DNA of 64,000 bases from assembly GCA_947176345.1 (NCBI GenBank), contig CAMWQI010000001.1, positions 65,900 through 129,899 of the forward strand. The letters are read 5' to 3'. This stretch comes from an uncultured Ruminococcus sp. (GTDB lineage: Bacteria; Bacillota; Clostridia; Oscillospirales; Ruminococcaceae). Position numbers and translations under genes: made by a program. Under the pieces are notes generated by a model. The model searched no databases. It was given only the letters and a program-made list of their open reading frames with translations, and was not told the DNA's origin. Below, piece after piece: positions 54,848-58,054 of the stretch. Position 1 is the stretch's first letter. Each line of letters starts with the position of its first letter.

Positions 54848-54975
54848 TAACAAACATAATTTAATTTTGGCAAATAATTTATGAAAGGATTTTGTTACTG
54901 ATATTAAAAGTGTTATGCCAGACGTTTTCACACGGACATATGGAAAACGAAATATAATTCAGTAACGACAGATTG

Positions 54976-56412
54976 ATGAAAGAAAAAGAAGATGAAATTA
55001 AAAAAGTTTCTGTAGCGACAAAGCCTAAGCCACTCAAAAAACTCAAACCAGTACCACAGAACACTCCGAAAAAAATACCTGAGCCAGAAAAAAGTACTCC
55101 TGAAAAGAAACGCATTGTTATAGGTGAACTTCCTGACTATGATTCATGGTCGGACAGTCAGGCAGAAACTCCAGCTGAAGATTTACAGGAAGAAGAAAAG
55201 TCACAGCCGGAAAAATCGGCGAAAAATGAAAAACCTGAAAAGAAAGGTTTCTTTTCAAGGGTGAAAGACTTGATGTATGTTTCTGCGGACGACGACGAAG
55301 AACCCACACCCGATGAACAGAACGACGACGGGAATTTTACAATAGATGAAATGACTGAAAACGTTCCTGATACAATGGATATTGTTAATGAAGTACTTTC
55401 TGAAGCAAAAAACAAAGTCCCTGAAACTGAACCCGAAACAATACAAGAACCTGAACCGGCAAAAGAACCTGAAAAAAAGTCTCCGGAGTCTACAAAAAAT
55501 AATAACAACAATAATAATAACAGGAAAAAAAATAAAAATAAAAAGAAAAAGAAAAAATCCGGAGCAGGAAATTCCGGCAAGCCTGTACAGCCTGAAAAGA
55601 AACCTGAAAAAATTCCTGAACCGGAAACAGAAAAATTCGTTGACGAACCGAAAGTGGAAGAACCTGAAAAAGAACCGGAGCAGGAAAATAATTCAACTGA
55701 AACTGTTGAAGAGGAAACTATTGTACAGGAATTTATTGATGATATACCCGAAATACCAGATGATATAAAAATTCCTGAAAGGTCTGCTGATACAGTAAAA
55801 AACGGAAAATATAACAGCGTACTTGTTCTTTTGTGCGTTATACTTGCGATAATCGGGGTTATTGCAATTATAAATGCCTGTATTTCGGGGGGCAGTTCTT
55901 CCGATGACAAGTACAGAAAAGCCATATATCCGGCAGTAATCACAGATATAAGTCCGTTTGAAAATCCGGCTGAACTCACTGATAATCAGATTTTAAGTTC
56001 GGCTATATGGTCTGTAATAATAGATAATGAAAAACTCTCACAATATCCACAAAGAGTTGATAATATGGCTATTATTCCGGCAGAAGATATTGAAAATTTT
56101 GCAAAGGATATGTTCGGAGAGGATATAAAGGAACTTACTCATAGTACAATAGTTACAGCAGACTCAAAATTCTATTACAATGCGGAGGCAAATTCCTATA
56201 GTGTGGATATAAAGCCTTATACATTTACTTATTCTCCTAATGTAACTTCTGTATCAAAGAAAAAAGGAAAATATATCGTTGCAGTTGATTACATAGCTGA
56301 ACACCCCGAATGGATGGAAGATACTGTTTCAAAGTCCGTTGAATTTACACTTTCAAAGAACGAAAACAATGGTTATAAAATTGACTCAATGAAAGAAATT
56401 ATAACCGAATAA
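54976..56412 (+). CDS. Hypothetical single-pass membrane protein with Pro/Glu-rich cytoplasmic region and Asn/Lys block
   Basis: NNNNNNNNRKKNKNKKKKKK; TM SVLVLLCVILAIIGVIAIINACI. Confidence 0.8.
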   Translation: MKEKEDEIKKVSVATKPKPLKKLKPVPQNTPKKIPEPEKSTPEKKRIVIGELPDYDSWSDSQAETPAEDLQEEEKSQPEKSAKNEKPEKKGFFSRVKDLMYVSADDDEEPTPDEQNDDGNFTIDEMTENVPDTMDIVNEVLSEAKNKVPETEPETIQEPEPAKEPEKKSPESTKNNNNNNNNRKKNKNKKKKKKSGAGNSGKPVQPEKKPEKIPEPETEKFVDEPKVEEPEKEPEQENNSTETVEEETIVQEFIDDIPEIPDDIKIPERSADTVKNGKYNSVLVLLCVILAIIGVIAIINACISGGSSSDDKYRKAIYPAVITDISPFENPAELTDNQILSSAIWSVIIDNEKLSQYPQRVDNMAIIPAEDIENFAKDMFGEDIKELTHSTIVTADSKFYYNAEANSYSVDIKPYTFTYSPNVTSVSKKKGKYIVAVDYIAEHPEWMEDTVSKSVEFTLSKNENNGYKIDSMKEIITE

Positions 56413-56519
56413 GTCACACACGAAATCCAAAAAAATCCCCTACTTAAAGGAATGCGCTCATAAAGAAGTTTAAGACATAGCATTTTTGATTTGCATTCAA
56501 AAGTGCTATGGAGTTTTTA

Positions 56520-56548
56520 TTGACAAGACGACTGCTTTGATGTATAAT
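56520..56548 (+). promoter_or_regulatory. Perfect consensus promoter TTGACA-N17-TATAAT inside cassette
   Basis: 56520-56525 and 56543-56548. Confidence 0.85.
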
Positions 56549-56595
56549 AGTTACTAAGATAAATCAGAATTTTTAAATGAAAGGAGTTGAGAATT

Positions 56596-56802
56596 GTGTT
56601 TTTTCCACCAATAGTTTTAATACGAAAGAACTTGATTATAAAAAAATTATCTCAATGTGGTGCTTTTACTGATGAAACTGCTAAAACATTTTCGGAAGCC
56701 GGAATTATTAACCCTAATGGGTTCAAAAAAGTAAATGATGCTTTAGAAAATCAAAGGGTATTAGTAAGAACTAAAGAAAACAAATATTACTTGAATAAAT
56801 AA
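56596..56802 (+). CDS. 68-aa wHTH-like small protein inside cassette (GTG start; TTG 56587 alternative)
   Basis: MFFPPIVLIRKNLIIKKLSQCGAFTDETAKTFSEAGIINPNGFKKVNDALENQRVLVRTKENKYYLNK; SD AAAGGAG. Confidence 0.7.
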   Translation: MFFPPIVLIRKNLIIKKLSQCGAFTDETAKTFSEAGIINPNGFKKVNDALENQRVLVRTKENKYYLNK

Positions 56803-56915
56803 TTGCAAATTATAATATTGAATAATAAGAACAAGCCCCGAAGCAGTTATCAATAATTGCTCCAGGGCTTAAACTTCTTTATGAGTATCGAATTAAGTAA
56901 GGGATTTTTTTTATT

Positions 56916-57878
56916 TTACTTGCTGTAGTCTTTAAAACTTACATTCATGTCAACATCTGTCGCAATTCCGGGAACACGTCCATCACTTGCATACTGCCAT
57001 ATCTTAAAATCATAATAATATGTAGGTTCATCATTATATTCCGCAAGCCATATATCATATTCCTTTACTCTCGGCAAATCTACTTTAGAAAGCAGTGTGC
57101 TTGTATTCTGATAAATCATAGGTGTATAACCGGCTTCCTTTACACGTTCACAGAAAGCCACACAGCAGTCTGCAAGGGAATCAATGGAAATTTCATCAGT
57201 ACGGGCATAATCTTCATAGATAATTTCCCAGTCAAAAACAACCGGATATGTTATATTAAATGGTCTTATAGCCTCAATTACAGCGTCCGCCTCTTCAATA
57301 GCCTCTTCAGTTGTAAGTGCCTGTGAGAAGAAATAAACACCTGTATGTATTCCGGCACGGTCAGCGGAGTAGAGATTTTCCTTGAATCTTGTATCATAAA
57401 TAATACCACCATCGGCATATGTACGACAGCCTATTCTTATGAATGCAAAATCAATGCCGGAGTCCTTGACCTGTTTCCAGTCTATAAAGCCCTGATATTC
57501 AGATACATCTATGCCATTTATTGAGGTTTCCATATCCTTGTCTTTATAGAGGGAGTATTCATCATTTTTTGCGGATTTTTGTGTGACAATAGCTGTTGTG
57601 GTTGGAATTTCTGTATTTTCTGAAATTTCAGTATTCACCGAATTTTCCGGAATTATATCAGCGACTTTTTCAATAGTTGGTACTTCCTGTTGATAGACAA
57701 TTTCTTTTGGACTGGAATCAGCTTTTGTTTTTACGTCCGGTTCAGTGTTTATGGTAGGGACGATATTTATAGCTGTATTGGTTGTCATTGTGAAAATTAC
57801 CAGTGGAACAGTGAGTATAACAATCAGAACAGCCTCAATAATTGCAATAATTTTGATTTTTTTATTATCCTTAAACAT
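56916..57878 (-). CDS. Membrane-anchored GH25 lysozyme-like muramidase
   Basis: SINGIDVSEYQGFIDWKQVKDSGIDFAFIRIGCRTYADGG, PVVFDWEI, WQYASDGRVPGI.TDVDMN. Confidence 0.92.
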   Translation of the reverse strand: MFKDNKKIKIIAIIEAVLIVILTVPLVIFTMTTNTAINIVPTINTEPDVKTKADSSPKEIVYQQEVPTIEKVADIIPENSVNTEISENTEIPTTTAIVTQKSAKNDEYSLYKDKDMETSINGIDVSEYQGFIDWKQVKDSGIDFAFIRIGCRTYADGGIIYDTRFKENLYSADRAGIHTGVYFFSQALTTEEAIEEADAVIEAIRPFNITYPVVFDWEIIYEDYARTDEISIDSLADCCVAFCERVKEAGYTPMIYQNTSTLLSKVDLPRVKEYDIWLAEYNDEPTYYYDFKIWQYASDGRVPGIATDVDMNVSFKDYSK

Positions 57879-58054
57879 TTTATCCGTTACTGAAAACCTA
57901 CCAGCAATATGCACAAATCAGAGAAGTTTATCAGTTTAAAGTTTACAATAACGGTTTTCACCTCTCTTTCATAATATTTCCTATAAAAATTACTGCTTTT
58001 AATATAATATCATATTTCAGACTTTTTGTAAACAGTTTCCGGAAAAAAAGCTTG

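Follow-up and report, generated by a model that had tools for sequence, protein, structure and literature searches.

Large serine recombinases (LSRs) of the DUF4368 clade are multi-targeting enzymes with low target specificity (PMC10083194). The IMEs that carry them, among them the Tn4451/TnpX and TndX relatives and IME_Rho_tet, have inverted ends, with the recombinase at one end and an arm just 3' of its gene; in IME_Rho_tet, a serine-recombinase element of the gut, 21-bp inverted ends lie 81-90 bp past the recombinase stop (PMC12904643). CIMEs keep their att ends in the absence of integration and transfer genes (PMC5704250). Other small mobile units include integron cassettes, which usually hold one compact accessory ORF drawn from a diverse pool and form short arrays, and MITEs, which are short, non-autonomous, bounded by inverted ends and accompanied by cargo-less relatives. 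IS1272, of the IS1182 family, targets stem-loops or inverted repeats whatever their sequence (PMC5678879).

The window, by which we mean the whole 64,000-nucleotide stretch of DNA that was analysed, contains a member of a cassette family that is present in multiple copies in Ruminococcus and resembles each of these systems in part. IMEs span ~10 kb or more and carry both a recombinase and a relaxase, whereas the cassettes span ~0.4-2 kb, lack a recombinase, usually hold one gene with a fixed promoter and hairpins, and are repeated many times in a genome, at terminators. The defining criterion of an IME, its own recombinase and relaxase, is not met, and the cargo is usually one unrelated ORF. 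Like CIMEs, the cassettes have att ends without integration or transfer genes, but CIMEs are decay products in tandem with another element, and the cassettes form an organised family at many sites, constant in its modules and variable in its cargo, whose copies stand alone at dispersed terminators and do not meet the criterion of a tandem remnant. They share the general form of MITEs, but have LSR-type arms, genes with a promoter, and no link to a DDE transposase that we could find. IS1272 shares their indifference to the sequence of the inverted-repeat target; however, it replaces the stem-loop, whereas the cassettes keep both stem arms, and the ends and enzyme differ. Our reading, to which we give a probability of about 0.74, is that these are non-autonomous, LSR-mobilised, terminator-targeting gene cassettes, with catalysis by the LSR inferred in the absence of any experiment. 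We did not find the family described in the open-access literature, which does not exclude a description elsewhere.

The cassette copy in the window

The copy runs from TA to TA between two convergent genes (Table 1). All of the features named in an earlier sequence-only reading of this DNA could be located, including the convergent neighbours with stops at 56412 and 56916. The outer arms (56429-56447/56893-56911; 19 nt) are 95% complementary, and the inner arms (56457-56474/56868-56885; 18 nt) are perfectly so (100%), as had been claimed. Both of the hairpins in that reading proved more stable than 200 of 200 shuffled sequences (left, -18.1 kcal/mol, z -5.6; right, -17.9/-22.4 kcal/mol, z -4.7/-5.7), and its perfect promoter indeed reaches the full consensus score. 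Since the insertion is delimited by the TA at each junction, the sequences on either side of the copy join up as AAAAAAATCCCCTACT-TA-AGTAAGGGATTTTTTTT and can fold into a terminator whose loop is UUAA, in agreement with the suggestion that the outer arms are one split bidirectional terminator.

Table 1. Features of the cassette copy and its neighbours, in window coordinates
Feature	Position	Strand	Basis
Convergent neighbour upstream, 479 aa, unknown family	54973..56412	+	
Split host terminator, left half (putative B half-site)	56429..56444	+	pairs with 56896-56911; empty terminators in relatives
Left junction, TA core	56445..56446	.	same-cargo copies identical from here; conservation table
Left recombination arm (P half-site-like) TAAAGGAATGCGCTCATAAAGAAGTTTAAG	56445..56474	+	family alignment; related arm ends serine-recombinase elements
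Left hairpin, then GAGTTTTTAT, terminator-like	56476..56510	+	pairing with compensatory changes, 26 sequences
Constant promoter TTGACA-N17-TATAAT	56520..56548	+	12/12; conserved family-wide
Inner 5' box TAAATCAGAATTTT (family TAAATCGGAATTTA), start of cargo	56560..56573	+	comparison of copies
Ribosome-binding site GGAG	56583..56586	+	sequence
Cargo gene, 68 aa, without Pfam family	56596..56802	+	ORF; Pfam
Inner 3' box, degenerate (family TAAATTCTGATTTA)	56805..56818	+	compared with other copies
Right hairpin (GCCCC...GGGC), likely terminator for cargo and for neighbour on opposite strand	56833..56870	+	fold; family
Right recombination arm, core TA 56894-56895 at its end	56868..56895	-	pairing; conservation
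Split host terminator, right half with T-run	56896..56912	+	pairing; intact terminators in relatives
Convergent neighbour downstream, GH25 lysozyme (PF01183)	56916..57914	-	Pfam

The cargo ORF begins with GTG, 9 nt 3' of the GGAG. It had been described as wHTH-like, and while the ORF is there, we rejected this identity: the protein has no Pfam match, its structural model (HHH-EE) is of low confidence (pLDDT 57), and no PDB entry matched at E<=0.001. The modelled HHH-EE order is compatible with a winged helix, which is possible but unproven. In a relative (G050), DNA 98% identical to the cargo lies 3' of another gene without the left module, a single weak case because its contig ends in adapter-like sequence. 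The contig end at L020 1690-1736 resembles sequencing-adapter contamination (CTGTCTCTTACACATCTCCGAGCCCACGAGAC).

A dispersed family in which modules stay constant and cargo varies

The earlier reading had proposed a BLAST search for further copies in the same genome and in relatives, and there are many, with the same modules around different genes. The left (56457-56572) and right (56817-56916) ends of the copy recur in its own genome by BLAST, and the middle does not; with a covariance model, 10 copies of the left module were found in this genome. Cassette matches occur in 40 of 60 Ruminococcus congeners. When genomes were drawn evenly across the bacterial family, the left module was present in 25 of 247 genomes and 15 of 126 genera, a genus count that is partly an effect of naming because R. 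albus is counted as a separate genus. Scanning named genomes yielded at least 120 matches, and nearly all of the matches listed belong to Ruminococcus or to unnamed Clostridia/Oscillospiraceae, including R. flavefaciens, R. albus and many gut or rumen genomes. The curated covariance models of Rfam do not match the cassette. One arm-like match (C3:29169) was discarded, as it lacks the surrounding module.

Profile searches of the fetched loci paired left and right modules into 77 elements. Common to all copies are the left module, consisting of a 27-bp arm, a hairpin and the promoter, and the right module, consisting of a hairpin and a 27-bp inverted arm. From 5' to 3', the order is left arm, left hairpin, TTGACA-N17-TATAAT promoter, TAAATCGGAATTTA box, ribosome-binding site, one ORF, TAAATTCTGATTTA box, right hairpin and right arm. 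Across 26 sequences, 98.7% of the pairs of the left hairpin are kept, three pairs having changed in both partners.

The gene between the modules is almost always different from copy to copy. The 59 cargo proteins were assigned to 46 Pfam families, with GNATs (9), alpha/beta hydrolases (4), LD-carboxypeptidases (2) and CPBP/Rce1 proteins (2) recurring and VanZ, HIT, DJ-1 and methyltransferase proteins among the singletons. Three PADLOC families were matched by cassette cargos, and because each matched only one cargo, we rejected defence as a general cargo role. Of the 37 cargos scored, 17 use the TAA of the 3' box as stop codon, and in 26 the box begins within 6 nt of the stop. Departures from the one-gene layout include cargo reversed in two copies (L141, L184), two- and three-gene arrays (L017, L013), a tandem (L226) and near-empty copies (L045, L166, L199). 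The inner boxes might pair across the mRNA (5' AUAAAUCGGAAUUUA with 3' UAAAUUCUGAUUUAU) and perhaps stabilise it, which is an inference. Boxes like TAAATTATGATTTA were also seen outside cassettes, in other intergenic repeats (L031 590-710 and L183 352-699), which could make the inner box a site of wider use.

Such contents recall an integron cassette (attC) array that has lost its integrase: the ORFs are diverse and mostly single, the boundaries are compact, the cargo is rich in GNATs, and arrays of 2-3 genes occur. However, where an integron gene has one attC, the cassettes have inverted arms on both sides; every copy is also equipped with a promoter and sits alone at one of many dispersed terminators, and the arms are LSR-like. 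The recombinase of integrons is a tyrosine enzyme, against a serine enzyme inferred here, and no integrase platform or attC has been shown. Judging from anatomy, we hold this explanation to be highly improbable.

Insertion into terminators and movement between them

At the orthologous site, the relatives examined have one intact terminator. A query made of the joined flanks matched 12 congeners without the cassette in one piece and the window genome in two, which supplies the empty site that the sequence-only reading had suggested looking for. The same reading had held that its proposal would fall if relatives always carried this gene here and no other copies existed, and neither holds, as relatives lack the cassette and copies are numerous. 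A resident, non-mobile regulatory gene between paired terminators might have been suspected, as paired hairpins around a gene of this size resemble ordinary terminators, but the 12 relatives with an empty site and the many copies with unrelated genes refute it and leave it practically no chance.

Flank pairing was evaluated in 36 unique copies with both junctions located, with the TA being part of the selection rule. The mean pairing energy was -15.9 kcal/mol, compared with -6.06 (sd 0.57) when the right flanks were permuted, and 26 copies exceeded the 5% threshold. Conservation of the ends was tabulated on a set that, unlike these 36 copies, was not selected on TA. On both sides conservation stops sharply at a core that is T-(T/A)-A at most ends, with background or random sequence beyond it, and no target-site duplication longer than this core was seen. 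The proposal of a terminator-targeting cassette with its own gene is thus supported by empty sites, split-terminator flanks and other copies.

Single cassettes were observed at different terminators: one with metalloprotease-like cargo (L161, L042, L041, L031), one with a hydrolase (L226, L022) and one with a protein of unknown function (L108 versus L004/L025). Cassettes with the same cargo in different genomes are mostly more than 90% identical, both modules included, and the identity ends at the core. Since near-identical cassettes occupy different terminators in different genomes, we conclude that cassettes move, a point that had so far been inference alone. Most copies may nevertheless be old. 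One could instead suppose that the arms are LSR-related but old, and that homologous recombination between the constant modules swaps genes without transposition; fused arrays (L013, L017) and mixed flanks (E29 versus E30) fit this scenario, and both modules may be long enough for it. It does not sit well with whole near-identical cassettes at different terminators, with the sharp core boundaries or with expansions of short copies in two genomes (G044, G047), and we consider it unlikely. In a separate comparison, L145 and L121 share cassette and right flank and differ in the left flank, consistent with a rearrangement or an assembly join.

A candidate mobiliser and a proposed mechanism

In an arm-only search, for which the reversed-pattern control was near zero, G044 gave 111 arm matches. 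G044 and G047 contain short elements (L260-L266; 111 and ~280 bp) that have arms of this kind but no cargo, and several of them split terminators. The longer of these elements hold a long GC-rich hairpin.

In G034, one arm adjoins a fragment of a serine recombinase, homologues of which occur in 49 of 60 genomes. In almost every one of the 30 loci fetched, an arm lies ~40 bp 3' of the LSR gene, with four or fewer mismatches in 20 of the 30. The LSR proteins contain Resolvase, Recombinase, zinc-ribbon and DUF4368 domains (PF00239, PF07508, PF13408, PF14287), the domain set of the DUF4368 LSR IMEs. Both ends were located in three LSR elements (L311, L312, L316), and the complete elements measure 15.8 kb and 11.5 kb (both in G037) and 13 kb (in G042). 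Those at L311 and L316 split terminators; no clear split terminator was seen at L312. Cassettes and LSR elements have a TA-type core in common, and their arms differ on average by 5-6 mismatches over ~26 positions; in the best copy (L109), 27 nt are identical to the recombinase-proximal arm of L281. Judged by these alignments, LSR elements have related ends and core, and two marks of LSR mobilisation, related ends and a common short core without a long target duplication, are met. Because the ends of LSR elements resemble them, we favour reading the cassette arms as P half-sites, with the terminator in the role of attB. A fixed polarity, with the left arm recombinase-proximal and the right arm distal, was unsupported on average and was dropped. 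The closest LSR in the window genome (C243) has an arm more distant from the cassette arms, and the LSR query found no match in the cassette-rich genomes G050, G053 and G014, whose assemblies are incomplete.

These findings bear on the description of the element as MITE-like, which was right as to form, although its arms point to an LSR and not to a DDE transposase. IS1182 was examined as a mobiliser because its family targets stem-loops. A gene-carrying MITE of an unidentified palindrome-targeting DDE transposon (IS1182/IS1272-like) would explain the terminal inverted repeats and the cargo-less 111 and ~280 bp copies with the same ends, and IS1272 provides a precedent for stem-loop targeting (PMC5678879). 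Yet IS1182 transposases scored above cut-off in just 6 of 60 genomes, their ends differ from the cassette arms in the fetched loci, to which this comparison is limited, no target-site duplication extends beyond the core, and the cassette ends resemble those of LSR elements instead. We accordingly rejected IS1182 as the mobiliser and regard this type of explanation as improbable. At L232, an IS1182-family element lies between two copies of a whole hairpin (GAACAGCGGCATTTCTGCCGCTGTTC), which suggests stem-loop targeting by IS1182 in Ruminococcus too.

Returning to LSR-mobilised cassettes, we propose that the pair of inverted 27-bp arms makes up an attP, one arm being its P and the other its P' half-site, and that the matching DUF4368-type LSR would be supplied in trans from LSR-encoding elements in the same bacteria. 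The inferred reaction would excise the cassette as a circle, itself an inferred intermediate, with the arms joined around TA, and the circle would insert into an intrinsic terminator at a TA of its loop, with the stem arms as the presumed inverted B half-sites. The split terminator would then be replaced: the left hairpin and T-run would halt transcription running in from the left neighbour, while the right hairpin would terminate the cargo gene and, on the opposite strand, the right neighbour. Terminator replacement is an inference, drawn because the left hairpin precedes GAGTTTTTAT and from hairpin anatomy. Cargo expression is likewise inferred, with the fixed strong promoter presumed to express any ribosome-binding site and ORF placed between the inner boxes. 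Because the cassette brings terminators and a promoter, we suggest that insertion could be nearly harmless to neighbours and the accessory gene expressed at once.

More tentatively, and short of even odds, we envisage an integron-independent system in Ruminococcus and relatives, in which an LSR takes terminator hairpins as attB and spreads self-expressed one-gene cassettes, and a second, unknown process captures a ribosome-binding site and ORF at the inner TAAAT..ATTTA boxes, so that the stop codon becomes joined to the module. There is a fair chance that the cassettes deserve a class of their own. If the reading as LSR-mobilised cassettes is right, gut and rumen Ruminococcus have a common plug-in gene pool (acetyltransferases, hydrolases, VanZ- and LD-carboxypeptidase-like proteins, many unknowns), the genes of which bring their own promoter while terminator targeting protects neighbours. 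Serine recombinases would gain an integron-like role, and a reason would be suggested why the multi-targeting LSR clade tolerates variable targets, namely any TA-loop hairpin. A hard-to-find class of mobile genes would have an easy search signature, a low-damage insertion tool is suggested, and the question of how genes become cassettes could be approached in a second, unrelated system.

Two observations concern the LSR elements themselves. The 11.5-kb element (L312 4811-12329) contains four adjacent genes, one encoding a 1443-aa protein with weak SbcC/Rad50-like matches, whose order resembles Wadjet-type defence, a likeness of gene order alone; a MobC/NikA-like gene is also present. A sister LSR clade with related arms (L301-L308, ~1430 or 1830) seems to use, in place of varied terminators, one conserved insertion sequence.
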